This document shows positions 19,155 through 36,194 of a stretch of 36,294 bases of DNA, piece by piece (position 1 is the stretch's first letter; every line of letters starts with the position of its first letter). The DNA comes from Alistipes sp. (GTDB lineage: Bacteria > Bacteroidota > Bacteroidia > Bacteroidales > Rikenellaceae), in contig JAFTNV010000004.1 in the NCBI GenBank assembly GCA_017451685.1, positions 1-36,294 of the forward strand. Reading direction: 5' to 3'. The translations under genes and the position numbers were made by a program. The notes beneath the pieces are model-generated. The model saw only the letters and a program-made list of their open reading frames with translations, ran no database searches and had not been told where the DNA came from.

Positions 19155-19249
19155 GCGTAGCGACTTTTAGTCGCAAGCTCGCGCGGATACCGCTAAAAAA
19201 GAGCGCAGACCTTTTAAGGTCGAGCAATAAATCATAACCCTATCCGCGC
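19155..19249 (+). ncRNA. Structured element A, tRNA T-loop-associated
   Basis: Hairpin GCGACT-TTT-AGTCGC (19160-19174), with two further pairs outside it, is followed by an outer stem GCGCGGATA (19181-19189) / TATCCGCGC (19241-19249), enclosing a hairpin GACC...GGTC (19208-19221). The segment from GATACC through AGCGCAG, the hairpin and CGAGCAAT to CATAACC resembles element B at 36081-36155, with different but still paired hairpin stems. Strand is inferred from the GAAA tetraloop in element B. No ORF of note. Function unknown; a mobile or regulatory RNA are both possible. Confidence 0.5.
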
Positions 19250-19292
19250 AACCGCCATCAAGTGAGCACCGCGGCAGTGTAATATTGCCGTT

Positions 19293-19397
19293 GTTGGCGA
19301 GATTGCCAGAGGCAACCGCAAATGTGATTAGCCTACTGTGGGCTTGCACACATAGGAGGTTAATCACATTGGCGTGAGGGCATAGCCCCTCGCCAAC
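19293..19397. ncRNA. Candidate four-way-junction RNA
   Basis: Closing stem GTTGGCGAG (19293-19301) / CTCGCCAAC (19389-19397) encloses three hairpins: TTGCC-AGA-GGCAA (19303-19315); a long one with AATGTGATTA (19321-19330) / TAATCACATT (19361-19370) extended by CCTA/TAGG and TGTG/CACA around GGCTTG; and GGGC-ATA-GCCC (19378-19388). All stems are perfect. The arrangement covers nearly every base, which is far more order than expected by chance. Orientation is unresolved because perfect stems read the same on both strands. No known family recognised. Confidence 0.5.
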
Positions 19398-19408
19398 ACT
19401 CTCCCACC

Positions 19409-19443
19409 AAAAAAAAAGACTGACCGAAACAAATCGGTCAGTC
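19409..19443 (-). terminator. Rho-independent terminator of tRNA-Leu
   Basis: Minus-strand 10-bp stem GACTGACCGA / TCGGTCAGTC (19434-19443 and 19418-19427) with a six-base loop is followed by nine T (A-run 19409-19417). It starts 8 bp after the tRNA 3' end. Part of direct-repeat copy 2 (19422-19470). Confidence 0.88.
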
Positions 19444-19450
19444 AATAAAG

Positions 19451-19536
19451 TACTCGGAGCCGGGGTCGAACCGGCACGGGCATTACTGCCCACAGGATTT
19501 TAAGTCCGGCGTGTCTACCTATTCCACCATCCGAGC
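19451..19536 (-). tRNA. tRNA-Leu (anticodon UAA)
   Basis: An 86-nt class II tRNA. Acceptor GCTCGGA pairs with TCCGAGT, with discriminator A and no encoded CCA. The anticodon loop CTTAAAA gives UAA (leucine UUA/UUG). The long variable arm GGGCA/TGCCC and T-arm GCCGG-TTCGACC-CCGGC are intact. The anticodon stem has one C-U mismatch near its base. A strong promoter precedes it and a terminator follows it. Its last 20 nt are duplicated at 19135-19154. Confidence 0.95.
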
Positions 19537-19559
19537 CCTTAGTCTTAGTAAAGACGTCG

Positions 19560-19590
19560 CAAATGTACGATTTTTATTTTATTCTACAAA
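19560..19590 (-). promoter_or_regulatory. Promoter of tRNA-Leu
   Basis: On the minus strand TTTG (19587-19590) and TACATTTG (19560-19567) are separated by exactly 19 bp, a full Bacteroidetes consensus. The -7 box lies 23 bp before the tRNA 5' end. The -33 box falls just past the miaA stop codon. Confidence 0.8.
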
Positions 19591-20519
19591 ATCTTACTAT
19601 CAATATATGCGATAATTTCTTCTATGCGCTCGGGCGCAAACCACCCTATCGTTGTGTCGCGACGAAACCACGTGAGTTGTCGCTTGGCATAGTGGCGCGA
19701 ATTACGCTTGATTAGTTCTATAGCCTCGTCGAGGGTTATCGTGCCATCGAAGTGGTCGAACAGCTCGCGGTAGCCCACGGTTTGCAGGGCGTTAAGGTGG
19801 CGCTTGGGGTACATCGCGCGTGCCTCGTCAACAAGGCCATCTGCGACCATAATATCCACGCGACGGTTGATGCGGTCGTAGAGGATGTCGCGTGGCATGT
19901 CGGTGCCTACCTTTATTATATTAAAGGGGCGCGTGGCTTTCGCGCCATGGCGCTGTGCGGAGTAGGGCCTGCCCGTAGTGAGGCACACCTCCAAGGCGCG
20001 CATAACACGTGCGGGATTGCGCGTGTCGACACTCTCGGCATAGTCGGGGTCTAAGCGCTGAAGTTCCGCAACGAGGGCACCAAGGCCCTCAGCAGCGAGA
20101 CGTTCACGTAGGCTCTCGCGCAGTGTCGCATCGGCCTCGGGGAGGTCGTCCATGCCGTCGCACAATGCCTGAATATAGAGTCCCGAGCCACCAACGGCAA
20201 CGACATAGTCGTTCTTGGCAAAGAGCCTTTCGAGGAGTGCCAACGCCTCGACCTCGTATTTCCCACAATTGAAGTCGTCCTCGACCTCGCGGTCAGCGAT
20301 GAAGTAGTGCGTGGCAGCAGCAAGCTCCTCGGCAGTGGGCTGTGCCGTGCCTATGGGTAGGCCACGGTAGAACTGTCGCGAGTCGGTGGATAGTATAGGG
20401 GCGTGATAGTGGCGGGCGAGGGTCACAGCAAGTGCCGTCTTACCCGAGCCCGTGGGGCCCACGACCACGATAAGCGTACCTCGCTTAGTATTCGTCGTCG
20501 TAGCTGTCATCACCATCAA
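19584..20519 (-). CDS. miaA: tRNA dimethylallyltransferase
   Basis: Transfers a dimethylallyl group to N6 of A37 in tRNAs reading UNN codons. The 311 aa are typical. P-loop GPTGSGKTAL (residues 21-30), DSRQFYRGLPIGTAQPT (substrate tRNA/DMAPP region), VGGSGLYIQAL and the C-terminal KRNSRHYAKRQLTWFRRD are all visible. Three in-frame ATG codons lie within the first four residues; the exact one is undecided. The ORF overlaps the upstream pRiA4b-like gene by 35 bp in another frame, so expression is probably coupled. The neighbouring tRNA-Leu(UAA) is itself an expected substrate. Confidence 0.96.
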   Translation of the reverse strand: MMVMTATTTNTKRGTLIVVVGPTGSGKTALAVTLARHYHAPILSTDSRQFYRGLPIGTAQPTAEELAAATHYFIADREVEDDFNCGKYEVEALALLERLFAKNDYVVAVGGSGLYIQALCDGMDDLPEADATLRESLRERLAAEGLGALVAELQRLDPDYAESVDTRNPARVMRALEVCLTTGRPYSAQRHGAKATRPFNIIKVGTDMPRDILYDRINRRVDIMVADGLVDEARAMYPKRHLNALQTVGYRELFDHFDGTITLDEAIELIKRNSRHYAKRQLTWFRRDTTIGWFAPERIEEIIAYIDSKIL

Positions 20520-20991
20520 ACTCGTTGTAGTCGCTCATCATCTCCTCGAAGATGGAGCCTGACTCCTCCGTAGCCTCGGGGTCGTACTGGTCGGGCACAG
20601 GGGCGTGCTCGAAGACCACACGGGGGTATGTGAGGTCACCTACGGGGCGTTGCATGTCGATAAGCTCGAGGTAGTAGGAACGATTGTTAAGCATATCGAA
20701 GGTATATATCAGGCGGTCGTGGAAGTCGCTATTGACATCCATAAGTCGCACATTATCCATGCAGCGCGGTGCGCCAGGGACATCGTCGCCAAGGTCTATC
20801 TCCGAGAACTCCTCCACGGGGCGCCACTCATTGTCGGCCTTAAAGATCGACACCATGCAGTCGTCGTAGCGCAGGGCACGGAGTATGAAGCGGTGAAACT
20901 CCGTGAGGGTCATGTCGGGGTATACCTCGAAGTCGCGAACAAAATGGTCGCTCTCGTCGCTAAGCATGCGGTATTTGAAGATAATATTCAT
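20485..20991 (-). CDS. pRiA4b ORF-3-like protein of unknown function
   Basis: A 168-aa acidic protein. It opens with MNIIFKYRMLSDESDHFVRDFEVYPDMTLTEFHRFILRALRYDD, the pattern of the pRiA4b ORF-3 family (alpha/beta fold, named after a plasmid ORF and sometimes labelled an IS1096 passenger protein), despite having no transposase nearby. Later YELIDMQRPVGDLTYPRVV also fits. The last 30 residues are Asp/Glu/Tyr-rich (FDGDDSYDDEY). Its 3' end overlaps miaA by 35 bp. Molecular role unknown. The start is supported by the intergenic AT-rich leader upstream. Confidence 0.78.
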   Translation of the reverse strand: MNIIFKYRMLSDESDHFVRDFEVYPDMTLTEFHRFILRALRYDDCMVSIFKADNEWRPVEEFSEIDLGDDVPGAPRCMDNVRLMDVNSDFHDRLIYTFDMLNNRSYYLELIDMQRPVGDLTYPRVVFEHAPVPDQYDPEATEESGSIFEEMMSDYNEFDGDDSYDDEY

Positions 20992-21093
20992 GGTCGATTA
21001 TGTTTTTATGTGTTCTAATCACTACAAATGTAATACATATATTTAGAATATATAGGTACGAGGAGCAAAAATATGAATAAAAGTTCAAAAAAA

Positions 21094-21124
21094 TTGGTAG
21101 TCTTCAAAAAAGATATTATATTTG
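21094..21124 (+). promoter_or_regulatory. Promoter of rho
   Basis: TTGG (21094-21097) and TATATTTG (21117-21124), separated by 19 bp. The -7 box contains the TTG from which a longer reading frame could be drawn, which argues that the longer frame is not translated. Confidence 0.72.
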
Positions 21125-21130
21125 CAGAGC

Positions 21131-21211
21131 AAACGAAAACGTATCCACGTGTCCCGAGTTCCACGTATAGTGTGGTGCTATTCGGGTAATGCGAAAATCA
21201 AAAATAGAAAT
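21131..21211 (+). promoter_or_regulatory. Structured leader of rho
   Basis: About 80 nt of leader. CCCGA (21153-21157) pairs with TCGGG (21182-21186) around an inner CCAC (21161-21164) / GTGG (21172-21175) hairpin. An 11-codon ATG frame (21189-21224) overlaps the rho start out of frame. Rho genes are often autoregulated by attenuation in their leader; a similar role here is inference. Confidence 0.4.
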
Positions 21212-22894
21212 ATGCAGGATTTAACAGCATTGGAGGGTAAGACCATTCTCGAATTGCGCGAAATAGCAAAGGTTCTGGGAATAACACCCTCGAATATGAA
21301 GAAGAAGGAGTTGCTCGAGAGGATTGTTGCAGCAGCAAGTGGCACAGCAAGCCCCGAGCATAGTGCGGAGGAGGCATCTGTTGAAGCCCCGGTAAAGAGA
21401 GGCCGTCGCCCACGCATGATGAGTGTTAAGGTTGGCGGCAACAGTAATAATGCGACACCCACGGAGGAGGGCGAGAGCGCAAATAAGCCCATAGCCGAGC
21501 CTCAGCCCGCAACAACGGAGGATGCCGAGCCCGCCAAGGTGGAGGCGGCACCCCAGCCAAAACGCCGTGGCCGTAAGCCCAAGTGGATAGTGGAGGCCGA
21601 GGAGCGCGAGCACACGGAGGCTGTCGCAGTGGCCGAAGATGTCGACGACGAACTTGTGGAGGCTACGGCAGAGAGCGACAACGAGGAGAGTGTCATAGAT
21701 GCCGACGAGCTCTTTGACGAGGAGTTTGACAGCGCAGACTATGTAGCACGTGAGGAGACAATAACGAAGGACGACTTCACCGCCGAGATTGAGGGCGAGG
21801 GTGTCTTGGAGGTTATGCCTGACGGTTTCGGCTTCCTACGCTCGGCCGACTACAACTACCTAAACTCGCCCGACGATGTATATGTATCGCCCTCGCAGAT
21901 AAAGCTCTTTGGACTGAAGGCTGGTGATACGGTAAGTGGCACGATACGTCCACCTAAGGAGGGCGAGAAGTACTTCCCGCTGGTGCACGTAAACCTTATC
22001 AACGGCCTCAAGCCCGACTACATACGCGACCGTCAGCAGTTCGAGTATCTCACACCACTCTTCCCGAGCGAGAAGTTTAACCTCTCGGCAGGCAGCCACA
22101 ACACCAAGTCTAACCGTATTATCGATCTCTTTGCCCCCATAGGCAAGGGTCAGCGCGCGCTTATCGTGGCACAGCCCAAGACGGGTAAGACGATGCTCCT
22201 ACAGTCGATAGCCAACGCCATTGCCGACAACCACCCCGAGGTATACATGATCGTGTTGCTCATCGACGAGCGCCCCGAGGAGGTGACGGAGATGGCGCGC
22301 CACGTGAAGGCGGAGGTTGTGGCCTCGACATTCGACGAGCAGGCATCGCGCCATGTGAAGGTGGCAGAGATGGTCTTGGAGAAGGCTAAGCGCATGGTCG
22401 AGTGTGGCCATGACGTCGTTATCTTCCTCGACTCGATAACACGCCTTGCACGTGCCTACAACTCGGTGCAGCCCGCCTCGGGTAAGGTGCTCTCGGGTGG
22501 TGTCGACGCCAACGCCCTGCACAAGCCCAAGCGTTTCTTCGGTGCTGCGCGTAACACAGAGGAGAAGGGCTCGCTCACCATCATCGCCACGGCACTTATC
22601 GACACGGGCTCGAAGATGGACGAGGTGATATTTGAGGAGTTCAAGGGCACGGGTAACATGGAGTTGCAGCTCGACCGCAAGTTGGCGAACAAGCGCATCT
22701 ACCCTGCTGTCGATGTTGTTGCCTCGGGCACACGTCGCGAGGACTTGCTCCTCACGCCCAGCGTGATGCAGCGCACATGGATTCTGCGTAAGCACCTCTC
22801 GGACATGACACCCGTGGAGGCTATGGAGTTCTTGCAGAAGCAGATGAACCTCACGAGGGACAACGACGAGTTTTTAGCAACGATGAATCAATAA
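21212..22894 (+). CDS. rho: Transcription termination factor Rho
   Basis: Hexameric RNA-dependent ATPase/helicase that ends transcription. I start at ATG 21212 (561 aa, [20 protein letters not shown]) because the upstream frame opens inside the promoter. Domains: Rho-N helical domain (about 1-45); an acidic, Pro/Ala/Lys-rich insertion of about 140 residues with KRGRRPR and RRGRKPK AT-hook-like patches; cold-shock RNA-binding domain ([18 protein letters not shown]); ATPase with Walker A QPKTGKT (residues 321-327), [10 protein letters not shown], Walker [17 protein letters not shown] and the Q/R-loop region [22 protein letters not shown]. The insertion is typical of Bacteroidetes Rho and absent from the E. 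coli enzyme (419 aa). Confidence 0.96.
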
Positions 22895-22900
22895 TAAGGT

Positions 22901-23674
22901 ATGACGAAGAAGTTATTAACCCTCGCTGTGGCTATGTGTATCGTGCTTAGCGCCTCGGCATGGGGCCCCAAGGGTCACGATACGGTAGCATACATCGCCG
23001 AGAAGCACCTCTCGAAGAAGACACTCAAAAAGGTGCAGGAGGTGTTGGATGGTCACTCGCTGGTATATGTGGCCAACTGGCTCGACAATGCCAGCCACAC
23101 CGAGGAGTATGCCCACACCAAGACGTGGCACTACGTAAATGTAGACCCCTCGGAGGGTACCTACGCTAACTCGGCAAAGGAGAAGAAGGGGGATGCTGTG
23201 GTGGCGATAAACACCATCGTCGAGCACCTCAAGAGTGGCGAGCTCACGCCCGAGGAGGAGAAGGCCGAGTTGATGATGCTCATACACATCGTCGGCGACA
23301 TGCACTGCCCGATGCACGCGGGATATAAGAGCGACCGCGGTGGCAACGGCACACAGGTGAAGTACTTCGGCAAGCAGCGCAAGCTACACTCGGTATGGGA
23401 TAGCGAGATTGTCGAGTCGGCACACCGCTGGGGCTATAGCGAGTGGCAGGAGCAGGTAGACCGCGCCACAAAGAAGGAGCAGAAGGCCATAGCGCAGGGC
23501 ACACCCAACGACTGGATTGAGGAGACCGTGGCCCTCGCCCGCGACATCTACGAGCGCTCGACAACGGGCGGGAACCTATCGTACGACTACGTGGCACACT
23601 ACGCCCCCGTAATCGAACAACAATTCCTTAAAGGAGGCATCCGCCTTGCGACACTCCTCGAGGAGATATACTAA
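22901..23674 (+). CDS. Secreted S1/P1-type nuclease
   Basis: A 257-aa exported protein with a signal peptide ending SASA before Trp 22, so the mature protein would start with Trp, which is a zinc ligand in the S1/P1 family. Other probable zinc ligands follow: WGPKGHD, NWLD, THTKTWHYVN-type H, HIVGDMHCPMH, LHSVWDSEIV. The family cleaves single-stranded DNA/RNA and removes 3'-phosphates in the periplasm, likely for nucleotide scavenging. It begins 6 bp after rho, so it may be co-transcribed with it. A bidirectional terminator follows at once. Confidence 0.93.
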   Translation: MTKKLLTLAVAMCIVLSASAWGPKGHDTVAYIAEKHLSKKTLKKVQEVLDGHSLVYVANWLDNASHTEEYAHTKTWHYVNVDPSEGTYANSAKEKKGDAVVAINTIVEHLKSGELTPEEEKAELMMLIHIVGDMHCPMHAGYKSDRGGNGTQVKYFGKQRKLHSVWDSEIVESAHRWGYSEWQEQVDRATKKEQKAIAQGTPNDWIEETVALARDIYERSTTGGNLSYDYVAHYAPVIEQQFLKGGIRLATLLEEIY

Positions 23675-23715
23675 AAAATTAGAGAAGTCTTTCACATAGA
23701 CTTCTCTAATTTTTT
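23673..23715. terminator. Bidirectional terminator after the S1/P1 nuclease gene
   Basis: An 18-bp stem (23673-23690 and 23698-23715; core AGAGAAGTCT / AGACTTCTCT) with a 7-base loop, flanked by A and T runs that serve both strands. It ends the rho-nuclease transcript. Confidence 0.85.
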
Positions 23716-23756
23716 AATGAGTAATGAGTAATGAGTAATGAGTAGTGAGTAGTGAG
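23715..23756. repeat. Tandem heptamer repeat TAATGAG/TAGTGAG
   Basis: Six consecutive 7-bp units: four TAATGAG then two TAGTGAG, followed by a partial unit. The related string AATGAGTAATTAGTAGTGAG occurs on the minus strand at 67-86, also just after a gene end. Function unknown. Confidence 0.85.
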
Positions 23757-23778
23757 TAATTATTTGGGGCGGTTAATA

Positions 23779-23842
23779 AATATAGGGATAGCGTTATAAA
23801 TAAAAACACTAAACTCTCTAAAATCCTTAAAATCCCTATATT
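23779..23842. repeat. 11-bp inverted repeat upstream of the vor operon
   Basis: AATATAGGGAT (23779-23789) and ATCCCTATATT (23832-23842) are separated by 42 bp. The remaining 23760-23950 segment is AT-rich with no coding frame or other clear feature. It could be a remnant of a small mobile element or an operator region. Confidence 0.5.
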
Positions 23843-23954
23843 CTCTATAAATTCCCATCTCTCTTTTCTTCTACTTTGCCCCTCAAAGCTACAACAAAGT
23901 CACTTTTCGGGAAAATTATTTCGAAAAAGTGTAGGTTGTTTGCAAAAAAATGTG

Positions 23955-23962
23955 TACATTTG
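23955..23962 (+). promoter_or_regulatory. -7 box of the vor operon
   Basis: TACATTTG, with TTG/TTTG sequences about 12-20 bp upstream in a GTTGTTTGC stretch. The leader to the first ATG is about 55 nt and AT-rich. Confidence 0.6.
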
Positions 23963-24024
23963 TTTGGTTAATTCCGCATTAAGAGAAAACCAAAACTATT
24001 AACAACAATAAAAACTACTGTCTT

Positions 24025-24252
24025 ATGGCAAAAATCAAAGGAACAGTTGTTGTCGATACGGAGCATTGCAAGGGTTGCGGTGTGTGTGTAGCATCGTGTC
24101 CTACGAAGACGCTCGGTTTATCGACCGAAGTGAACGGCAAGGGTTACCCCTTCGCTATGATGGTTGAGCCGGATTCTTGTACTGGTTGCGCTTCATGCGC
24201 TATCATCTGTCCGGATAGTTGTCTAACGGTGTATCGCCAAAAATTTGAGTAA
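24025..24252 (+). CDS. 2 x [4Fe-4S] ferredoxin-type (delta) subunit of 2-oxoacid oxidoreductase
   Basis: A 75-aa protein with two complete CxxCxxCxxxCP motifs (CKGCGVCVASCP and CTGCASCAIICP), i.e. a two-cluster ferredoxin. First gene of a four-gene operon with alpha, beta and gamma subunits of a 2-oxoacid:ferredoxin oxidoreductase, so it carries electrons from the thiamine site to free ferredoxin. The operon order delta-alpha-beta-gamma is that of VOR/KOR-type enzymes. Codon use here and across 24.0-30.0 kb is richer in GCT, GGT, GTT than neighbouring genes, suggesting high expression. Confidence 0.9.
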   Translation: MAKIKGTVVVDTEHCKGCGVCVASCPTKTLGLSTEVNGKGYPFAMMVEPDSCTGCASCAIICPDSCLTVYRQKFE

Positions 24253-24255
24253 ACT

Positions 24256-25350
24256 ATGGCAGAGAAAGAGGTAAAACTTATGAAGGGCAACGAGGTGATT
24301 GCTCATGCAGCAATTCGCTACGGTTGCGACGGCTATTTCGGCTACCCCATCACTCCGCAGTCGGAGGTTATGGAGACCCTCATGGAGCTTAAGCCTTGGG
24401 AGACAACAGGTATGGTTGTGCTTCAGGCTGAGAGCGAGGTATCTTCTATCAACATGGTTTACGGCGGTGCTTCAACAGGTAAGCGCGTGATGACATCGTC
24501 ATCATCACCCGGTGTCAGCCTTATGTCTGAGGGCTTGAGCTACCTCGCAGGTGCCGAGCTTCCTTGCGTTATCGTTAACTGCCAGCGTGGTGGCCCAGGT
24601 CTTGGTACCATTCAGCCCTCGCAGTCGGACTACTTCCAGGCATGTAAGGGTGGCGCGCATGGCGACTTCCACCTTATCGTCTTGGCTCCTAACTCAGTTC
24701 AGGAGATGCACGACTTTGTGGCTGACGCCTTCGACCTCGCATTCAAGTATCGCAACCCCGCGATGATCTTGGCTGACGGTTGTATCGGCCAGATGATGGA
24801 GAAGGTTGTATTGGCACCCCAGCGTCCCCGCAAGACTAAGGAGGAGATTGCTGCCGAGTGCAAGAGCTGGGCTCTTATCGGTAAGACCGACGACCGCGAG
24901 CGCAACGTGATCACATCGCTCGAGCTTAAGTCTGAGGTCATGGAGGTTAACAACCAGCGCCTCCAGGCTAAGTACGATGCCATCAAGGAGAACGAGGTAC
25001 GCTACGAGGCTATCGAGTGCGACGATGCAGACTACGTAATCGTAGCCTTCGGTTCGTCATCACGTATATGCTCTGCTACGGTGGAGATGGCTCGCGCCGA
25101 GGGTATCAAACTCGGTTTGTTGCGCCCCATCACCCTCTATCCGTTCCCCACAAAGGCTATCGCAGCGCTTGCTGAGCGTGGCGTGAAGGGCTTCCTCTCG
25201 GCTGAGCTTAACGCAGGTCAGATGGTTGAGGATGTACGTCTTGCAGTAAACGGCAAGGCTCCCGTTGAGCACTTCGGTCGCATGGGTGGCATGTTGTTCT
25301 CACCCGACGAGGTACTTAAAGCAGTTAAAGAGAAACTTATAAATCGATAA
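24256..25350 (+). CDS. vorB: 2-oxoacid:ferredoxin oxidoreductase alpha subunit (VorB-like)
   Basis: A 364-aa pyrimidine-binding (Pyr) subunit with MKGNEVIAHAAIRYGCDGYFGYPITPQSEVME (the conserved YPITPSTE-like site), VLQAESEVSSINMVYGGASTGKRVMTSSSSPG and QRGGPGLGTIQPSQSDY. The C-terminal domain II holds VAFGSSSRICSATV and LRPITLYPFP. Acts in oxidative decarboxylation of a branched-chain 2-oxoacid or 2-oxoglutarate to the acyl-CoA, reducing ferredoxin. The substrate cannot be chosen from sequence alone; VorB is the usual label for this length and order. It starts 3 bp after the ferredoxin gene. Confidence 0.9.
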   Translation: MAEKEVKLMKGNEVIAHAAIRYGCDGYFGYPITPQSEVMETLMELKPWETTGMVVLQAESEVSSINMVYGGASTGKRVMTSSSSPGVSLMSEGLSYLAGAELPCVIVNCQRGGPGLGTIQPSQSDYFQACKGGAHGDFHLIVLAPNSVQEMHDFVADAFDLAFKYRNPAMILADGCIGQMMEKVVLAPQRPRKTKEEIAAECKSWALIGKTDDRERNVITSLELKSEVMEVNNQRLQAKYDAIKENEVRYEAIECDDADYVIVAFGSSSRICSATVEMARAEGIKLGLLRPITLYPFPTKAIAALAERGVKGFLSAELNAGQMVEDVRLAVNGKAPVEHFGRMGGMLFSPDEVLKAVKEKLINR

Positions 25351-25354
25351 GACT

Positions 25355-26122
25355 ATGGCAGAGGTTGAAATCAAAAAGGAGAATTTGGTATTTGGTAAGT
25401 CAAAGCTTATCTTGCCTAACGTAATGCACTACTGCCCCGGCTGTAGCCACGGTACGGTTCACAAGCTCGTTGCCGAGGTTATCGAGGAGATGGGTTTGGA
25501 GCACGACACCATCGGCGTATCGCCCGTGGGCTGCTCGGTATTTGCATACAACTATATTGACATCGACTGGGCACAGGCTGCTCACGGTCGTGCTTGCGCT
25601 GTTGCTACAGCCATCAAGCGTGTTAACCCCGAGAAGATGGTCTTCACCTACCAGGGTGATGGCGATATGTCGGCTATCGGTACGGGCGAGACTATCCACG
25701 CAGCAGCACGTGGCGAGAACATCGTTGCTATCTATATTAATAATGCTATCTACGGTATGACCGGTGGCCAGATGGCGCCTACAACCCTCCTGGGTATGAA
25801 GACCGCAACTACGCCCTATGGTCGTGACCCCAAGCTCAACGGCTATCCCTACAAGATTGCTCAGATGTTGGCACACCTCGATGGCGTATGCTACGTTACT
25901 CGTCAGACTGTTCACACACCCGCAAACGTACGTAAGGCGAAGAAGGCTATACGCCACGCCTTCGAGAACGCTATGGCAGGCAAGGGCTTCAGCCTCGTTG
26001 AGATTGTTGCTACATGTAACAGCGGTTGGAAGCTGTCGCCCGTGGCTGCTAACGAGTGGCTTGAGCAGAACATGTTGCCTTTCTACGAGCCCGGAGATTT
26101 GAAGGACACAACTAAAGAGTAA
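25355..26122 (+). CDS. vorA: 2-oxoacid:ferredoxin oxidoreductase beta subunit, TPP-binding (VorA-like)
   Basis: A 255-aa subunit that binds thiamine diphosphate. MHYCPGCSHGTVHKLV and SPVGCSVFAYNYIDID carry conserved cysteine sites; YQGDGDMSAIGTGETIHAA with IYINNAIYGMTGGQMAPTT is the GDG...NN cofactor motif. Works with the alpha subunit encoded 4 bp upstream and the gamma subunit 5 bp downstream. The enzyme is oxygen-sensitive in known members, in keeping with an anaerobe. Confidence 0.92.
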   Translation: MAEVEIKKENLVFGKSKLILPNVMHYCPGCSHGTVHKLVAEVIEEMGLEHDTIGVSPVGCSVFAYNYIDIDWAQAAHGRACAVATAIKRVNPEKMVFTYQGDGDMSAIGTGETIHAAARGENIVAIYINNAIYGMTGGQMAPTTLLGMKTATTPYGRDPKLNGYPYKIAQMLAHLDGVCYVTRQTVHTPANVRKAKKAIRHAFENAMAGKGFSLVEIVATCNSGWKLSPVAANEWLEQNMLPFYEPGDLKDTTKE

Positions 26123-26127
26123 GCATT

Positions 26128-26673: not shown

Positions 26674-26698
26674 TATAGCATAGGGGGGGGGTAGATTG

Positions 26699-26755
26699 AG
26701 GTGCGAGCAGAGATGCTTGTAGCCAATGTTTACACAGCCACCTAATGCAAACATT
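26699..26755 (+). ncRNA. Compact pseudoknot RNA candidate
   Basis: Stem 1 AGGTG (26699-26703) / CACCT (26739-26743) encloses a 6-bp hairpin CGAGCA-GAGA-TGCTTG (26704-26719, GNRA tetraloop) and AATGTTT (26725-26731), which pairs with AAACATT (26749-26755) beyond stem 1: an H-type pseudoknot. A terminator begins at the next base. No known riboswitch or sRNA family recognised. It may be the 3' end of the vor transcript, a processed small RNA or a terminating riboswitch. Confidence 0.5.
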
Positions 26756-26789
26756 CCCGAGTGGACTTCGGTCTGCTCGGGATTTTTTT
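26756..26789 (+). terminator. UUCG-capped Rho-independent terminator of the vor operon
   Basis: An 11-bp stem with outer arms CCCGAG (26756-26761) and CTCGGG (26776-26781), inner GAC-TTCG-GTC, then A and seven T (26783-26789). Very strong; abuts the pseudoknot directly. Confidence 0.92.
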
Positions 26790-26894
26790 GTAGGAGGGGT
26801 ATTGTAGACGATATCAACTCGAAGAAACTCGCATTAAAACTCGTCGCACGCAAATTTATTTTGCGTTTTAGATACACCCTATTGATATTTTTAT

Positions 26895-26970: not shown

Positions 26971-27044
26971 ACGTTCAGAGCATAACGCTCGCAAATAAGG
27001 TGAAACGAGTAAACTTATAACATAAAACTACAAACTACACTACA

Positions 27045-28886: not shown

Positions 28887-28915
28887 TAACACCACTTAAT
28901 AATACAGAGAAAACT

Positions 28916-29947: not shown

Positions 29948-29966
29948 TCCCGTGTGGGACATTGCA

Positions 29967-29999
29967 TTAGGGCTGTGCTTCGGTACAGCCCTAATTTTT
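29967..29999 (+). terminator. Rho-independent terminator after korB
   Basis: Stem TTAGGGCTGT (29967-29976) / ACAGCCCTAA (29985-29994), extended inward to a TTCG loop, followed by T5. It lies 19 bp after the korB stop. Confidence 0.9.
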
Positions 30000-30088
30000 G
30001 GATGCTATTATTGATGGGTAACTATTGGTTAATATAAGTTTCGATAAAAGAAAATTTCTTTTCAGAAGGGACAGATACCACACTCGAC

Positions 30089-30137
30089 AAAAAAATACGA
30101 ATGGGCTGTACATATACGTACTGCTCATTCGTATTTT
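30089..30137. terminator. Long hairpin between korB and the pseudouridine synthase gene
   Basis: A 12-bp stem AAAATACGAATG (30092-30103) / CATTCGTATTTT (30126-30137) continues inward with further pairs (TAC/GTA). Seven A at 30089-30095 give a U-run for the minus strand, so it serves the minus-strand gene; T4CT4 gives weaker function on the plus strand. Confidence 0.8.
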
Positions 30138-30177
30138 CTTTTGGTAGGGGAAGTAGATACCCCTCACTGACACTAAA

Positions 30178-31401
30178 TTACTCGTATTGACCCGTCTTTA
30201 GACGCATAACCTCATCCTTGGTAAGGAAACGCCATGCACCACGCTTGAGGTTCTTCTTGGTAAGGCCGGCATAGTATACGCGGTCGAGCTTCTGCACGGC
30301 ATAGCCGAGGTGCTCGAACATACGACGCACGATACGGTTGCGACCAGAGTGTATCTCAACGCCTACGGTACGCTTATCCTCCGAGGCGTATGCCACCTCG
30401 TCAGCGAAGATGTCGCCATCGTCGAGCGTTATGCCCTCGGTGAGCGAGTCCATGTCGGCACGTGTGAGAGGCTTGTCGAGTGTCACCTGATATATCTTCT
30501 TCTTACGATTCGAGGGGTGTGTGAGCTGACGTGTGATGTCGCCATCGTTGGTTATGAGGAGCAGTCCCAACGAGTTCTTATCGAGGCGACCTACGGGGTA
30601 TACGCGCTCTGTGCAGGCATCCTTCACAAGATCCATAACCGTCTTGTCGGCATGGGGGTCGTCGAGCGATGTCACATAGCCCTTGGGCTTGTTTAGCACA
30701 ATATATACGTTCTTCTCACCCTGAAGGCGCTCGTCGTTGAAGCGCACCTCGTCGGTGGGAAGTATCTTTGTGCCGAGCTCGGTTACGACAACGCCATTTA
30801 CGGATACCACACCCGCAAGGATGAAGTCGTCAGCCTCACGGCGTGAGCATACGCCCGACTGCGAGATGAAGCGATTAAGACGAATGGCACCATCCACCTT
30901 GTTGGGATTGTACTTGGGATATGTGCGCGGCTTGTCGTCCCTCTTAGGTGCGAATGTGCGCTTCGCGCCACCCTTGAATCCACCACGGCCCTCAGTCGCG
31001 GGGCGACCACCGGCCTTGGGCTTGAAGCCACCTGCGGGCTTACGACCGCGCTCTGGTCTATCCGTGCGGTTGAAGTCGCGCTCGCCACGCTCTACACGGT
31101 TGAAGCTACGCTCCTCGCGGTTGAAGTTACGCTCACCACGCTCCTCAGTGCGACGAGGGCGCTGCTCATACTCAGGGCGCAGACGGTTGTCGGCCGTGAA
31201 GTGGGGGTTGTACGATGTGCGCTGTGAGGGGCGCTGCTCTGTCCTCGCCACACGTGGGCGATACTCTCTCTGGCCCTCGTTGTCGGCCTCACGGCGAGGA
31301 CGGGGGCTACGCTCAACGCGCTCCGCAGTGCTTACACGCTGACGCTTGTCGCGAGCAAAACGCGAAAGGTTTGCCGTTGAGTCTGTGTTGTTGTTTTTCA
31401 T
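30178..31401 (-). CDS. RluB/RsuA-family pseudouridine synthase with Arg-rich N-terminal extension
   Basis: Isomerises uridine to pseudouridine in ribosomal RNA. The 407-aa protein is long: residues 1-165 are a low-complexity, basic extension with repeats of the type RGERNFNREER / RGERDFNRTDR and GGFKPKAGGRP. The S4 RNA-binding domain follows (IRLNRFISQSGVCSRREADDFI), then the catalytic domain with VLNKPKGYVTS and the catalytic Asp in PVGRLDKNSLGLLLITNDGD, and GRNRIVRRMFEHLGYAV. The family assignment to RluB (versus RluE/F or RsuA) is by length and context only. Monocistronic, with its own promoter and terminator, divergent from the MATE gene. Confidence 0.93.
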   Translation of the reverse strand: MKNNNTDSTANLSRFARDKRQRVSTAERVERSPRPRREADNEGQREYRPRVARTEQRPSQRTSYNPHFTADNRLRPEYEQRPRRTEERGERNFNREERSFNRVERGERDFNRTDRPERGRKPAGGFKPKAGGRPATEGRGGFKGGAKRTFAPKRDDKPRTYPKYNPNKVDGAIRLNRFISQSGVCSRREADDFILAGVVSVNGVVVTELGTKILPTDEVRFNDERLQGEKNVYIVLNKPKGYVTSLDDPHADKTVMDLVKDACTERVYPVGRLDKNSLGLLLITNDGDITRQLTHPSNRKKKIYQVTLDKPLTRADMDSLTEGITLDDGDIFADEVAYASEDKRTVGVEIHSGRNRIVRRMFEHLGYAVQKLDRVYYAGLTKKNLKRGAWRFLTKDEVMRLKTGQYE

Positions 31402-31432
31402 CTGTGTAATATTACTTTAATAAGTTGTGCGA

Positions 31433-31440
31433 CAAAGGTA
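31433..31440 (-). promoter_or_regulatory. -7 box for the pseudouridine synthase gene
   Basis: Minus-strand TACCTTTG with a TTG about 18 bp upstream; 32 bp before the ATG. Confidence 0.62.
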
Positions 31441-31503
31441 ACCATTTTTTTTGATATTCAAGATTTTTGCAATCTCCGTGCCACAAAAATTAGCAAAATA
31501 TGC

Positions 31504-31511
31504 TACCTTTG
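31504..31511 (+). promoter_or_regulatory. -7 box for the MATE transporter gene
   Basis: TACCTTTG, followed by GCAG, 18 bp before the ATG at 31530. It excludes the earlier in-frame ATG at 31500 as the start because that lies in the promoter. Confidence 0.65.
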
Positions 31512-31529
31512 CAGCCTAAACGTGAGAAT

Positions 31530-32870
31530 ATGAACAGGGAGATACTACGCATAGCCATACCGAACATCATCTCGAACATCACCGTGCCCCTTATGGGCAT
31601 CGCCTCGACATTCATCGCGGGGCGCGTTGCGGGCGCCGATGGTGCGACAACCATAGGTGCTCTCTCTATCGGCGTGGCGATATTTAACTTCATCTACTGG
31701 AACTGCTCCTTCATACGCATGGGCACAAGCGGCCTCACCGCTCAGGCCTACGGCGCGGATGATAGGCGCGAGTATAGCCTCATGTTGTGGCGTGCCGTAT
31801 GTGTGGCTCTGGCAGTGGGAGTCCTGGCCTTCGCGTTGCAGTGGCCCATAGGTGAGTTCTCGCTGTGGTTTATGTCTACGGGCGATGCCGACAGCCGGGC
31901 GATGATTTCGGATTACTTCTACACGCGCATCTGGGCCGTGCCCGCGGGCATCCTCCTCTTTGGCTTCAACGGCTGGCTTACGGGCATGCAGAATGCCGTG
32001 GTGCCTATGTGTGTGGCCATCTTTGTGAATATCCTGCATGTGGGCTTCAGCTACCTATTCTCCATCGTTGGCAGCTGGGGCCTTAGTGGCATAGCCTTAG
32101 CCTCGGTCGTGGCGCAGTGGTCGGGTGTCGTGGTCATGGTCGTCATCATCTCACTACTCTACCGTCACCGTCTGGTCAAGGTGAGCCTCCGCGAGGTGGT
32201 CGATATGTCGGCTATGCGCCGCTTCTTTCAGATAAATAGCGACATCATCATACGCACATTCTGCCTTGTGGCGGTGTATACGTTCTTTACTAAAGCATCG
32301 GCTGATATGGGCGACAAGAACATCTTGGCGGTCAACACCATACTCCTACAATTATTCACCCTCTTCTCGTATATGAACGATGGCTTTGCCTACGCTGCCG
32401 AGGCACTCACTGGTCGCTTCATTGGAGCCCGCGATGGCGTGTCGCTACGCCGCTGTGTGAAGTTGTGCGTGGTGTGGTGCTTCGTGGTGTCATTCCTCTA
32501 TGTGGGCGTATATGTGGGCTGGTGGCGCGATATCTTCACGCTTCTGGTCGACTCCGAGACGAGCAACGTGGATGAGCTAATTGCCGTTGCGGGAGAGTAT
32601 ATCGGTTGGATTATAGCCATCCCCATCGCCTGCGCTCTACCCTTCGTCATGGACGGCATCATGGTGGGTGCCACACGCAGTCGCATCATGCGCGACTCTA
32701 TGGTGCTATCAACGATTGTCTACTTCGCGATACTCTACGGCCTCGGCTGGCTCATAGGCAACAACGCTATATGGATGGCCTTCACCACGTTTATGTTCGT
32801 GCGTGGCGTATTCCAATTCTTCATGTCGCACCGCCTCAAGGATATATATGCCGAGGCGGAGCGCCCCTAA
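31530..32870 (+). CDS. MATE family efflux transporter
   Basis: A 446-aa inner-membrane protein with about 12 transmembrane helices in two similar halves. It starts at ATG 31530 (MNREILRIAIPNIISNITVPLMGIASTFIAG), downstream of the promoter; the first helix fits the MATE opening. Later ILAVNTILLQLFTLFSYMNDGFAYAAEALTGRFIGARD matches the conserved second-half region. Known relatives (DinF-like) export cationic compounds in exchange for Na+ or H+; the substrate here is unknown. The last 4 bp overlap the convergent fucosidase gene. Confidence 0.92.
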   Translation: MNREILRIAIPNIISNITVPLMGIASTFIAGRVAGADGATTIGALSIGVAIFNFIYWNCSFIRMGTSGLTAQAYGADDRREYSLMLWRAVCVALAVGVLAFALQWPIGEFSLWFMSTGDADSRAMISDYFYTRIWAVPAGILLFGFNGWLTGMQNAVVPMCVAIFVNILHVGFSYLFSIVGSWGLSGIALASVVAQWSGVVVMVVIISLLYRHRLVKVSLREVVDMSAMRRFFQINSDIIIRTFCLVAVYTFFTKASADMGDKNILAVNTILLQLFTLFSYMNDGFAYAAEALTGRFIGARDGVSLRRCVKLCVVWCFVVSFLYVGVYVGWWRDIFTLLVDSETSNVDELIAVAGEYIGWIIAIPIACALPFVMDGIMVGATRSRIMRDSMVLSTIVYFAILYGLGWLIGNNAIWMAFTTFMFVRGVFQFFMSHRLKDIYAEAERP

Positions 32871-34291
32871 TATACCGCTATGCGGTCAATAGCGAGGGTG
32901 CCTCGCGCATCGAGGAAGCGAACACGCATCTGGTCAGTAACAACCTCTTCAAGGGGGATTATACGTTTGTAGCCTATGGTCGTACCCGCGGCCACCTGAT
33001 ACCAAGCGTCACCATCCTTGATGTCGACAGCATACTCACGCACACGTTGTCCCAAGGGTATATACTCCTCTATAACAATATATTTTGCCACGATAGGCTC
33101 TTTCCAACGTAGCACCACATCGCCTGATGTGATGTCATCCTCCGTAGCCCAATAGAGGCTATCCTCACCCTGTATGCCCTCCACCTCGAAGCCACGGCCA
33201 CGCGACGATGTAGCCTCGAAGCGGGCATCCTGTGCCAAGTCTGTCCGGAACGCCTCGTCCACCATCCTGCGCCACGCCATAAGTGACGCCACATCCTCCT
33301 CGGGAATCCTTCCGCGACGGTCGGGCGCGAGGTTTAGGAGAAGCGTGCCACCACGCCCCACCGATGTTAGATATATCTGAAACAGCTCCTCGGGACTCTT
33401 GGGCTCCTCGTAGTCGTGGTAGAACCACCCCGGACGAATAGATACATCGGCCTCGGCAGGTGCCCAGCGCGTGCCATCCTCCTGACCATGACGTAGCACC
33501 GGCATATTGTCGCGACCTCCCGGGTACATATCCTCGGGCGTGGCCATAGCCCAGCAGTGCTCGTCAATAACACCCCTCTCATTGCCACACCAGCGTGCAT
33601 CGGGCAGCGACGAGCTCCAGACGATAGTCTCGGGCGAGAGCTCGCGGATGATGTCGACGACATTCGGCCAGTCGTAATATAGGTAGCCCGACTCCACCAC
33701 ACGCCGCTCGTTAGCGCCACCATAGTAGCCGTCACCACCATTAGCGCCATCGAACCACATCTCGAACACGGGGCCGTAATTCGTGAGGAGCTCACGCACC
33801 TGGTTGCGGTAATACTCCAGGTAAGCCTCCGTGCCGTAGCCCGCATGGTTACGATCCCATGGCGAGAGGTAGATGCCAAACTTGATGCCCTGACGACGGC
33901 ACGCCTCTGCCACCTCACCAACGATATCGCCCTCACCATCCTTGTATGGCGAGTTCTTTATCGAATGCTCGGTGTAGGCACTCGGCCAAAGGCAGAAGCC
34001 ATCGTGATGTTTTGCTGTGAGAATCAACCCCTTGAGATTGGCATCCTTAACGACATTAACAAGCGCATCGGCATCGAAGTCCGTAGGGTCGAACAGCGCG
34101 GGCGACTCATCGCCATAGCCCCACTCCCTATCGGCAAAAGTGTTTATCGTGAAGTGCACAAAGGCATACTGCTCCATCTCGTGCCACGCCACCTGGCGCG
34201 GTGTGGGCACAACACTCATCGGGCGGGGAGCATCGACACCACACGCCACAATGAGGATGAGAGAAAGGATGGTGATGGCTATACGTTTCAT
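32867..34291 (-). CDS. GH29 alpha-L-fucosidase, lipoprotein
   Basis: Releases alpha-linked L-fucose from glycans, probably host mucin or Lewis-type structures. The 474-aa protein has a lipoprotein signal (MKRIAITILSLILIVAC), so it is membrane-anchored. N-terminal WHEMEQYAFVHFTINTFADREWG and LILTAKHHDGFCLWPS are GH29 signatures; the probable nucleophile is Asp 181 in FEMWFDGANGG, which resembles the GH29-B (alpha-1,3/1,4) subgroup. A C-terminal beta-sandwich follows from about residue 345. Encoded 7 bp after the EIIC-like gene, in the same unit. Confidence 0.93.
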   Translation of the reverse strand: MKRIAITILSLILIVACGVDAPRPMSVVPTPRQVAWHEMEQYAFVHFTINTFADREWGYGDESPALFDPTDFDADALVNVVKDANLKGLILTAKHHDGFCLWPSAYTEHSIKNSPYKDGEGDIVGEVAEACRRQGIKFGIYLSPWDRNHAGYGTEAYLEYYRNQVRELLTNYGPVFEMWFDGANGGDGYYGGANERRVVESGYLYYDWPNVVDIIRELSPETIVWSSSLPDARWCGNERGVIDEHCWAMATPEDMYPGGRDNMPVLRHGQEDGTRWAPAEADVSIRPGWFYHDYEEPKSPEELFQIYLTSVGRGGTLLLNLAPDRRGRIPEEDVASLMAWRRMVDEAFRTDLAQDARFEATSSRGRGFEVEGIQGEDSLYWATEDDITSGDVVLRWKEPIVAKYIVIEEYIPLGQRVREYAVDIKDGDAWYQVAAGTTIGYKRIIPLEEVVTDQMRVRFLDARGTLAIDRIAVY

Positions 34292-34297
34292 TGTCGG

Positions 34298-35353
34298 CTA
34301 TCGCTTTAGGCGCATGTCGCCATCCTTAACCCATCCTAAGCGCTTCATGATGATGTGGAAGAAGAGGCTCAGGAGGGCCGGAGCAACAAAATATAACCCT
34401 ATGATTGCAGCAAGGAGCTCATCGTGAGGCATCGTCGCCGACATCGTATCCCAGCAGTTTATCGGGCCCACCAGACCGGCAGTACCCATGCCCGCACCCG
34501 CAGCATTGTTCGTCATACCCAATACCATCGTCGAAATGGGGCCGAGGATGGCCGAGGTGAGCGTGGGTGCCAGCCATATTATAGGCTTACGCGCAATGTT
34601 ACCCACCTGGAGCATCGAGGTGCCAAGACCCTGAGATATTAGACCTCCGATGCCGTTATCCTTGAAGCTGATGACGGCGAAGCCTATCATCTGGGCACAG
34701 CAGCCCGCCGTGGCAGCACCCGCGGCAAGGCCTCCGATACCTATAGATATACATAGTGCCGCAGAGCTGATTGGCAATGTAAGGATGCAACCTACCGATA
34801 CGGACACGACAACGCCCATGATGAAGGGGTTGAGTGTCGTGGCTCTGTTTATCACCTCGCCGAGCGACATCACCCACTCGCCAATGGGCACGCAGCAATA
34901 CTTCGCAAAGATACCGCCTACGACCACCGCCACGAGGGGCGTGATGATGATATCTACGGGTGTGCGCTTCGATACGAGCGAGCCGGCCTCTATGCCGACA
35001 ATGGCGGCAAGATATGCACCTATGGGGTTGCCCGCAATGTCACCCGCAGCACCTCCGAGGGTGTAGCCCATGGCGCCCACAGCCACAGCCGAGATTGTCA
35101 CTAAGGGGTCGCGCTTAAGGCCCAAGGCGATGGCAAGACCTATGGCGCCACCCACAACAAGGTCGGTCTGCAATAGTCGTGCAATGTCGGCAAGGAACTC
35201 CATGCCGTCAATCTTGGCCACCTGCGCCACGATGGTACCGATGATAAGCGAGCCGAAGAGACCCATAGCCATATAACTGAGGGCATCGACGATGTAGGTA
35301 TTGAAGAGGCGACTCATGATGCCGGCACCCTTACGGTTAGTTCTATTTGCCAT
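34298..35353 (-). CDS. PTS EIIC_2-like integral membrane protein
   Basis: A 351-aa protein with about nine or ten hydrophobic segments, rich in Gly/Ala, resembling the PTS_EIIC_2 family (IVDALSYMAMGLFGSLIIGTIVAQ, GAMGYTLGGAAGDIAGNPIGAYLA, GLISQGLGTSMLQVGNI, LGMTNNAAGAGMGTAGLVGPI). No EIIA, EIIB or HPr-like genes are in the window, and Bacteroidales generally lack a sugar PTS, so phosphotransfer is doubtful; it may act as a lone transporter. A second possible ATG at 35317 (MSRLFNTYIVDAL) would remove 12 residues. It sits between the CAT-like gene and the fucosidase gene. Confidence 0.82.
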   Translation of the reverse strand: MANRTNRKGAGIMSRLFNTYIVDALSYMAMGLFGSLIIGTIVAQVAKIDGMEFLADIARLLQTDLVVGGAIGLAIALGLKRDPLVTISAVAVGAMGYTLGGAAGDIAGNPIGAYLAAIVGIEAGSLVSKRTPVDIIITPLVAVVVGGIFAKYCCVPIGEWVMSLGEVINRATTLNPFIMGVVVSVSVGCILTLPISSAALCISIGIGGLAAGAATAGCCAQMIGFAVISFKDNGIGGLISQGLGTSMLQVGNIARKPIIWLAPTLTSAILGPISTMVLGMTNNAAGAGMGTAGLVGPINCWDTMSATMPHDELLAAIIGLYFVAPALLSLFFHIIMKRLGWVKDGDMRLKR

Positions 35354-35366
35354 AATATCAAACTAT

Positions 35367-35993
35367 TTATTTTATCTCTATCTCGTTAAATACTTCCTGC
35401 AGACGGTTTAGGAAGGCTGTAGATACGGGGCCATCCATCTGCGTATGATGAAACTGGAACGATACGGGGAGCGTGGTACGGAATAGCCCCTTACGATACT
35501 TGCCCCACACAACAAAGGGGTTGTTGTAGAAGCCGGCATAGAGGTTAACCACCGAGTCCAACTCGCACTTTGTGAGCGCTGAGGTACCGATGACCATGTA
35601 GTCGTCGCCAAGATTAATCTCTTGGTCACTGCGTGCAGCCTCTGCCGTAAGTCGCGCATAATCTGTCGCAAACTGACGAATATCCCGCGTGAAGGGTATG
35701 TCGCACGTGTTGATGCCACCCGACAATGTGCGTACTATCGTGTTGATTGCCAAGTGGTCAAACTGCATCAACTTATCTCCTACGGGAAGTAGATAAAACT
35801 CCTCGAAGTCGCTCGCAGCACACCCTATGGCGTAACACATCAGCATGTTGAGCTTCGCCCCGCTACGACGTGCCACACGCCTAAGATGCGTGATGTCGTA
35901 GGTCTTTGTCATCGTCACCATGGGCATGGGCGAGCGCATCCACAGGTCGAAGGCCTTGGCGCGACTTGTTGTCTTGGGGTCTATCTCTCTCAT
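35367..35993 (-). CDS. Chloramphenicol acetyltransferase-like O-acyltransferase
   Basis: A 208-aa CAT-family protein. The frame stays open upstream to 36161, but that part runs through element B and a promoter; the ATG at 35993 (MREIDPKTTSRAKAFDLW) lies 19 bp after the -7 box at 36012-36019 and gives the normal family length. The catalytic HHxxxDG motif is present (HHTQMDG, residues 182-188). FNEFYxRF-like FDLWMRSPMPMVTMTKTYD fits the N-terminus. Such proteins acetylate chloramphenicol or, in other family members, unrelated acceptors; chromosomal context with a fucosidase does not say which. Head of the three-gene operon. Confidence 0.88.
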   Translation of the reverse strand: MREIDPKTTSRAKAFDLWMRSPMPMVTMTKTYDITHLRRVARRSGAKLNMLMCYAIGCAASDFEEFYLLPVGDKLMQFDHLAINTIVRTLSGGINTCDIPFTRDIRQFATDYARLTAEAARSDQEINLGDDYMVIGTSALTKCELDSVVNLYAGFYNNPFVVWGKYRKGLFRTTLPVSFQFHHTQMDGPVSTAFLNRLQEVFNEIEIK

Positions 35994-36011
35994 CTCGAAG
36001 GGTTTTATATG

Positions 36012-36019
36012 CAAAGATA
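36012..36019 (-). promoter_or_regulatory. -7 box for the CAT-like/EIIC/fucosidase operon
   Basis: Minus-strand TATCTTTG followed by GCA, 18 bp before the ATG at 35993. It fixes the shorter start of the CAT-like gene. Confidence 0.65.
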
Positions 36020-36080
36020 GTAATTTTTGGCGAGGATGGTTTCGAAAAGGATGAAAAATGCGTAGGGAAGATGGGATTCG

Positions 36081-36155
36081 AACGGCGTTAGCCGTAGAGC
36101 CGATACCTAAATAAATAGCGCAGGGCGAAAGCCCGAGCAATGAAGCATAATCCCG
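36081..36155 (+). ncRNA. Structured element B, related to the tRNA-Leu-linked element A
   Basis: After GGGATTCGAA (36073-36082, a tRNA T-loop-like string) come hairpins CGGC-GTTA-GCCG (36083-36094) and GGGC-GAAA-GCCC (36123-36134, GNRA tetraloop). Shared blocks with element A: GATACC, TAAA then AGCGCAG, CGAGCAAT and CATAA-CCC. Both hairpins differ in sequence from element A yet stay paired. The tetraloop suggests the plus strand. No intact tRNA lies within the remaining window; a G7 run (36174-36180) follows. Confidence 0.5.
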
Positions 36156-36194
36156 GGACACCCGAAAAGAGGTGGGGGGGAAATAAAAAAATAG

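Follow-up and report, generated by a model that had tools for sequence, protein, structure and literature searches.

Background

Mobile DNA often lands in transfer RNA (tRNA) genes, and the elements known to do so bring their own integrase, the T-loop being one of the crossover sites of tRNA-integrating tyrosine recombinases. The present study concerns a gene-free unit of about 250 bases that is found behind tRNA genes in many members of the gut genus Alistipes and was encountered in a stretch of 36,294 nucleotides from Alistipes sp. (Bacteroidales, Rikenellaceae; GenBank assembly GCA_017451685.1, contig JAFTNV010000004.1, positions 1 to 36,294 of the forward strand), which as a whole is from now on referred to as the window. 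The unit appears to represent a family of small mobile DNA without a name, and we put at about one in two the probability that such units form a family of non-autonomous, gene-free mobile DNA inserting at tRNA T-loops in Alistipes. What has been observed in this respect is the anatomy of the unit, the base pairing of its core (named Y), direct and inverted copies of the tRNA that are specific to the host tRNA species, presence and absence at the same locus, units in tandem and one genome (G054) where two closely similar units stand at different tRNA genes.

An extract of PMC9897764 describes how integration at tRNA genes leaves partial tRNA copies. The Alistipes units are like the islands and prophages integrated by tyrosine recombinases in that the 3' part of the tRNA is targeted, the gene becomes whole again and the far end carries a 3' fragment; the insertion site in the tRNA is fixed and the length of the copy varies. 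They differ in having no gene within their ~250 bases, which leave no room for an integrase gene, in their added inverted copy of the target, in their covarying hairpin cores and in tails that fit the host tRNA across 22 tRNA species and vary in length, and in two unit-rich genomes the only tyrosine recombinases found were XerC/XerD-like. The integrase may be supplied in trans.

Repetitive extragenic palindromic (REP) sequences and bacterial interspersed mosaic elements (BIME) are moved by REP-associated tyrosine transposases (RAYT), relatives of IS200/IS605. Like the Alistipes units they are short, gene-free, hairpin-bearing and present in several copies per genome, and many Y cores begin with GTAG on the plus strand; the GTAG is however not constant in Y, the placement of the units is tied to tRNA T-loops and a Y1 transposase was found in 0 of 20 unit-rich genomes, on which ground REP/RAYT or IS200-type transposition was rejected. 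In the attC sites of integrons the hairpin has the box RYYYAAC at its 5' base and GTTRRRY at its 3' base. The Alistipes units share with integrons the folded hairpin sites, tandem arrays that resemble cassettes and a start similar to GTTRRRY (GTTGAGC in many copies of Y, GTTAAGC in most copies of the second core, Y'). They differ in a reversed order of the boxes and in having the tRNA T-loop as target, and no cassette genes were found with them; an attC site was rejected because GTT, read by eye, stands at the 5' base of Y and Y' when the tRNA strand is followed. Rickettsia palindromic elements are dispersed palindromic repeats of unknown mechanism, situated inside or beside genes, and are similar as dispersed palindromes, whereas the Alistipes units are found at a single tRNA position with direct and inverted copies derived from the target. 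Miniature inverted-repeat transposable elements of DDE transposons carry short inverted repeats at their termini and a target duplication that is short and fixed in size; in the Alistipes units the inverted repeats fit the target itself and the direct copy varies in length.

A gene-free unit at the T-loops of 22 tRNA species that keeps the tRNA whole, as it carries or copies the fitting tail, and whose hairpins are kept by compensatory change, would be a simple and testable model for the recognition and movement of hairpin DNA. For annotation it may be useful that the spare tails resemble tRNA fragments and that several of the fetched draft-genome contigs end in or near these repeats.

The unit in the window

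A preliminary description of the window had reported two copies of a structured element whose hairpins differ by compensatory changes. Both elements are present, at 19155-19240 (copy 1) and 36081-36155 (copy 2), with the blocks GATACC, TAAA, AGCGCAG, CGAGCAAT and CATAA in the same order. The first hairpin is paired in both, as GCGACT/AGTCGC (19160-19165/19169-19174) in copy 1 and CGGC/GCCG (36083-36086/36091-36094) in copy 2, and so is the second, as GACC/GGTC (19208-19211/19218-19221) and GGGC/GCCC (36123-36126/36131-36134), respectively. The string TCGAA precedes both elements (19150-19154 and 36078-36082) and had been taken for part of a T-loop; in copy 1 it indeed belongs to a stretch of 21 bases (19134-19154) that repeats the 3' end of tRNA-Leu(TAA). 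The earlier observation is confirmed as real and is part of a larger structure.

When read on the tRNA strand, which in the window is the minus strand, the order of the unit is an intact tRNA, a terminator-like hairpin with a T run, a hairpin named X, an inverted copy of the tRNA 3' part, the core Y and a direct copy of the tRNA 3' half. The host gene of unit 1 is an intact tRNA-Leu with anticodon TAA (19450-19536, minus strand; ARAGORN and Rfam RF00005), the only tRNA which these programs find in the window, and its 3' half from the T-loop is situated at 19450-19470 (minus strand). The terminator-like hairpin (19418-19443) and its T run (19409-19417) stand directly behind it on the same strand. 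The X region (19293-19397, minus strand) is a long imperfect hairpin with the arms gttggcgag/ctcgccaac and a GCAAGC tip at 19342-19347. It is followed by a degenerate inverted copy of the tRNA 3' part (19250-19275, minus strand), identified by reading and by a permutation test at family level; as in many other units it contains a CTCAC block (gtgag on the plus strand, 19262-19266) and thereafter T-stem-like bases with GG before Y, this stretch typically ending in GGTT.

The Y core of unit 1 (19150-19253, minus strand; covariance model R1, 79.4 bits) consists of a closing stem of 9 bp, P1 (19181-19189/19241-19249), which is absent from the preliminary description, internal conserved blocks, the small hairpin P2 (19209-19211/19218-19220 in the model) and the hairpin H1 (19160-19165/19169-19174), located between P1 and TTCGA; the three model stems are supported by covariation. 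Behind Y the displaced 3' half starts at TTCGA in the T-loop and runs to the tRNA 3' end (19134-19154, minus strand), identical to 19450-19470, and it is followed by a second copy of the terminator hairpin (19103-19128, minus strand); the bases behind the two tails agree, with 8, 9 and 9 of 10 matches in the first three ten-base windows. In copy 2 the partner strand of P1 (its 5' strand) is lost with P2 and H1 intact, and only 131 bases separate this copy from the contig end, in which ARAGORN finds no tRNA gene. Since copy 2 is damaged and near the contig end, copy 1 is the informative one.

Base pairing in Y

To describe the fold, pair counts in alignments of Y cores were compared with shuffled alignments and with alignments in which the partner strand was slid, statistics that ignore the kinship of the cores. 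An alignment named A2 holds 65 of 69 listed cores, the omitted ones being a nested double in L079 and one each in L093, L066 and L095; eight more had been skipped earlier. The strict pattern by which these cores were collected fixes GATACC, AGCGCAG and CGAGCAAT, whose invariance in A2 is by construction. Among the 65 cores, 96.0% of the cells are standard pairs compared with 79.8% after shuffling and 30-39% with the partner slid, and cells changed on both sides number 144 compared with 32.2. Other lineages hold a short Y of about 60 bases without P2, and in 13 such cores (12 distinct) 100% of the cells are standard pairs compared with 86.9% in shuffles. These two sets, which come from different lineages, support the fold.

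Selection on base pairing, as proposed from the two copies in the window, is also supported by the larger set of 127 model matches (114 distinct), where 95.9% of the cells are standard pairs compared with 76.5% in shuffles and 33-41% with partners slid, and where double changes amount to 296 compared with 75.6. Further pair types showed no excess (30 compared with 30.7). These figures support but do not prove the fold, as the structure itself guided the alignment and the cores share ancestry.

Link to tRNA genes and the copied target

Of the 127 model matches, 11 were dropped as repeats or as being too near the start of the locus, which left 116 distinct cores, each with 59 or more bases upstream, for the tRNA tests. 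An intact tRNA gene predicted by ARAGORN lies on the same strand at most 420 nt upstream of 88 of the 116, covering 22 tRNA species. Among the other 28, nine are found 422-496 nt from a tRNA, as expected of the second unit in a row, one is found 628 nt away behind another unit, ten are cut off by the contig end within 420 bases and two more belong to such cut arrays, leaving six with ample upstream sequence and no tRNA nearby (two in L091, three in L079 and one in L171).

The plan seen in the window recurs among these 88 units. A T run of five or more was found within 75 nt behind the tRNA in 80 units, preceded by a hairpin in 70, and a GCAAGC-like X tip closed by three pairs in 47. The spacer folds strongly, with a median z of -6.1 against mononucleotide shuffles and z at -3 or lower in all 30 units sampled from the 88. 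Outside TTCGA the direct copy matches its own tRNA at 0.805 compared with 0.422 for other tRNA species. The inverted copy before Y scores above the mean of other species for its own tRNA in 77 of 88 units, and at species level the score is 5.94 compared with 4.12 (sd 0.169), a value reached in 0 of 5000 permutations over the 22 species; moreover, the three outer T-stem bases before GG fit the host at 3/3 in 37 units (mean 2.23, other species 1.08). Within units there is also pairing between the sequence that follows the tRNA and the one preceding Y (own 9.67 compared with 7.44, own higher in 54 of 88). As the tail matches its own tRNA, the inverted copy precedes Y and the flanking regions pair, the unit is read as T, X, inverted T, Y, T, with T standing for the tRNA tail and with a worn inverted copy.

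In 31 of the 88 units the copied tail stops more than 3 bases before the tRNA end is reached. It ends near that point in 25, 6-15 bases beyond it in five and more than 15 beyond in 27, in part because a further unit follows.

Further cores at the same position

A second core, Y', with the sequence GGCGT.AAGC...AGCCAA followed by T-stem bases (GGCGTTAAGC ... AGTAGCCAA), occupies the same T-loop position in 22 distinct places. A script found 13 different paired hairpin stems in Y', in 5 of the 22 only one of 3 bp, and in 19 of the 22 a tRNA gene is located upstream on the locus, 157-613 nt away. Y' was found in loci L009, L010, L014, L020, L028, L048, L068, L069, L087, L093, L169, L194, L195, L197, L208, L210, L211, L218, L219, L231 and L232, in some of which (e.g. 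L009) a Y unit and a Y' unit stand in a row. Since Y' holds the same position and is sometimes in a row with Y, the plan of the unit is modular. Behind tRNA-Leu(TAA) in L265 and L273 the same plan is seen, the matching stem strands there enclosing other cores that look unrelated. As such cores had no part in building the models, the unit counts are probably too low.

Distribution

A search of 200 genomes of the same family with the block pattern gave matches in 16, all in the genus of the window, while the reversed pattern gave 0 of 200, so the shared blocks go beyond chance. With a slightly longer pattern 67 stretches were found in 84,980 species genomes, 66 of them on records of Alistipes sp. 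or Rikenellaceae bacterium. The remaining stretch (L092) is a 4.9-kb contig titled Clostridia bacterium with an Alistipes core and is probably misbinned.

The preliminary description had proposed a search of Bacteroidales genomes with a covariance model, and would have been refuted by a lack of further copies or by random hairpins without the shared blocks. Within the genus Alistipes further copies were found: among 180 genomes model R1 matches 91 and model R2 105, together 112, the genome of the window alone having seven R1 matches, and the hits share the blocks rather than being random hairpins and mostly adjoin tRNA genes (88/116). Sixty-eight of the 180 genomes have no match to either model. 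In samples of the order, R1 was found in 1 of 393 and R2 in 1 of 384 genomes, each time only the genome of the window itself, with 11 (R1) and 14 (R2) candidates scored per genome at E <= 1e-4. Copy numbers and the absence from other genera are lower-bound statements, as at most 11-29 candidates per genome were scored under strict filters. Three core patterns gave 0 matches each in viral contigs, and blastn with window positions 19137-19470 gave no match in plasmid and phage records. As far as searched, the element is found in one genus only.

A thin search of the literature yielded no paper that we recognised as describing such an element. An extract of PMC8040213 reports palindromic candidate RNAs in Bacteroidetes, one of them near phage integrase domains, and these candidates may overlap with Y.

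Presence, absence and signs of transfer

The tRNA-Leu(TAA) of the window is situated at a locus between genes which we take to be ispF and miaA, and 12 of 30 fetched loci were compared. No unit was found in G174 and G246 (in the 560 bases inspected), one is present in the window and two in G118, L265 and L273 carry units with other cores, and in G184 the tRNA is kept together with an apparent remnant of X. Similarly, the tRNA-Ser(GCT) of G147 carries a unit and that of G246 none, the downstream sequences being 83% identical over query bases 1-581 and the upstream flanks reading alike. The upstream flank is the better evidence of orthology, as the sequence downstream is met again at other tRNA-Ser genes and probably represents an integrated element.

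This recurring flank, with a CTACAA..TTGTAG hairpin and TTGCACCAAAAATGCACC-like repeats, was seen behind tRNA-Ser genes of several species (L187 at 1501-2311, L189 and L194-L202) and probably marks where an integrative element ends.

The clearest sign of transfer, apparently with the tail taken from the target, comes from G054, where the units at tRNA-Ser(GGA) and tRNA-Ser(TGA) (interiors of 221 and 226 bases) are 91.4% identical over 210 bases, show no similarity in the 200 bases upstream and each carry the 3' half of their own host. In several other pairs of the 14 genomes compared in this way, the interiors matched in part.

Proposed mechanism and points against it

If the units are mobile, Y and X may act as DNA hairpins that are read by a recombination or replication enzyme, and the unit would at some stage be a circle or dumbbell with T as its stem and X and Y as its caps. 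Such a circle could recombine by one crossover in T, through the homology from the T-loop to the 3' end, and the tRNA gene would stay whole while the old 3' half would be displaced outward. A single crossover of a circle or dumbbell would give the main features including the tandem rows and the clean empty sites; the exchange of tails upon a move to another tRNA is not explained by it. Candidates for the enzyme are a recombinase of the host, such as XerC/XerD, and one that is provided in trans, and replication itself might also do the work.

Several findings weigh against mobility of this kind. No circle or movement has been seen. Varying tail length is a difficulty, since a fixed att site would not predict such variation without later erosion, and pairing of the T-stem across Y is often imperfect (5/5 pairs in 22 of 88 units; mean 3.81, other species 3.18). 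Matches over the whole interior between different tRNA species were found in two (G054 and G205) of the 14 genomes, for the selected loci compared, and the pair in G205 (83.7% over 209 bases) has the same tail in both units. For 57 cores in 27 named metagenome-assembled genomes, the nearest core was at the same tRNA species in another genome in 22 cases (permuted 3.4, 0/2000) and at another tRNA in the same genome in five (permuted 2.4, 255/2000); as the cores cluster by tRNA species and not by genome, moves between tRNA species are rare or old. An excess of antisense promoter boxes, described below, belongs to the same side.

The enzymes count on this side too. A survey of three families was performed in 40 genomes, 20 unit-rich and 20 without model hits, and among these families no dedicated enzyme common to the unit-rich genomes was found. 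The IS200-type Y1 transposase (PF01797) is present in 0 of 20 unit-rich and 1 of 20 hit-free genomes. Reverse transcriptase (PF00078) occurs in 9 of 20 unit-rich genomes (one below the curated cut-off), thus being absent from 11, and in 8 of 20 hit-free genomes. The unit-rich G095 and G089 (98% and 97% complete) hold two tyrosine recombinases each, with XerD and XerC as best NCBIfam matches, names that rest on the best match as one of the four proteins passes the equivalog cut-off.

Two further candidates were rejected on the same survey. Reverse transcription with the tRNA 3' end as primer or template was discarded on the figures for reverse transcriptase, and in addition tails from tRNA genes that encode no CCA (Ser, Gln) show no CCA. 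An integrase of the units' own was discarded as tyrosine recombinases occur in all 40 genomes with a median of five in unit-rich and nine in hit-free genomes.

A bolder form of the mobile-DNA reading can only be put forward tentatively: the units would constitute a class of minimal mobile DNA that is new, in the form of a circular dumbbell whose duplex stem is a copy of the host tRNA tail and which homes to T-loops by that stem, with different caps (Y, Y' and others) and no dedicated enzyme in the host.

DNA or RNA

The preliminary description had suggested a dispersed, tRNA-targeting non-coding element and had left open whether selection acts on RNA or on hairpin DNA. The dispersal and the targeting hold, with many copies and 88 of 116 near tRNA genes; as to the second question, the evidence leans to DNA. 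Among 1777 cells in the three helices, 22 are G-T and 15 A-C without clear strand bias. By helix the numbers of G-T and A-C are 7 and 6 in P1, 0 and 6 in P2, and 15 and 3 in H1, where the excess of G-T is mainly at the innermost pair. Since G-U pairs would be tolerated on the strand of an RNA, only H1 leans to RNA, P1 being balanced and P2 biased the opposite way. When analysing promoters, the box TAnnTTTG was identified before 79 of 88 tRNAs; inside the units it was found in sense in 15 of 88 compared with 11.15 in shuffles, no clear excess, and in antisense in 10 of 88 compared with 3.35.

These data bear on the possibility that Y and X are functional folds (e.g. a processing signal, a tRNA-end mimic or a ribozyme) of a structured non-coding RNA, for which transcription would either continue from the tRNA or start at a separate promoter. 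The covariation in P1, P2 and H1, the strong folding of the spacer, the antisense boxes above shuffles and the G-T cells in H1 are what such an RNA would show, but in 70 of 88 units the terminator-like hairpin with its T run stands before Y, and the copying of the host tRNA in both orientations would be unneeded for RNA function. At gathering level Rfam matches nothing except tRNA in the window and five further loci, in agreement with the earlier statement that no named family has this pattern, and between 19000 and 19600, with E up to 5, its other matches are below gathering score. Taken together, an RNA seems unlikely, and the balanced mismatches, the terminator-like hairpin before Y and the lack of a clear sense promoter excess moderately favour DNA hairpins.

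Still less likely is a cis element maintained by the host, for instance a decoy 3' half which phages and islands would use instead of the real tRNA, and which would be selected and inherited with the locus. The clustering of cores by tRNA species across genomes would suit it, as would G147, where the recurring tRNA-Ser flank, an apparent integrated element, starts at the unit's spare 3' half rather than at the tRNA. A maintained element is however difficult to reconcile with the patchy presence at orthologous tRNA genes, with truncated, nested and tandem cores or with the 68 of 180 genomes in the genus lacking a hit to either model, and it leaves the conserved sequence of the core unexplained.

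The least likely alternative, remodelled tandem inversion duplications in which template switching between the T-arm and the terminator palindromes gives direct, inverted and direct copies of the tRNA 3' part, fits the order T, X, inverted T, Y, T with turns at the T-arm and behind the terminator, and fits an inverted repeat that continues past the tRNA (45 of 88 units reach a local score of 10 or more, compared with 12.3% of different-species pairs), yet in place of palindrome junctions free of any foreign core the same conserved Y is found at 22 tRNA species, which independent accidents would not give, and a second core type is common to many loci.

Other observations

The Y core of unit 2 (36078-36163, minus strand; model R1, 66.8 bits) lies next to a tRNA-His-like 3' half (36066-36082, minus strand; likeness by reading). 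Copy 2, beside this tail, is a decayed unit.

Y cores nested in the H1 loop of another Y, and tandem Y cores at a distance of about 79 bases, were seen in L141, L093 (2984-3102), L079, L096 and L087 (6003-6248).

The tRNA-Leu(TAA) behind ispF is reversed in the window (18618-19536) and in some relatives when compared with other species (L254-L256, L266 and L269 against L259, L265, L273, L275 and L280).

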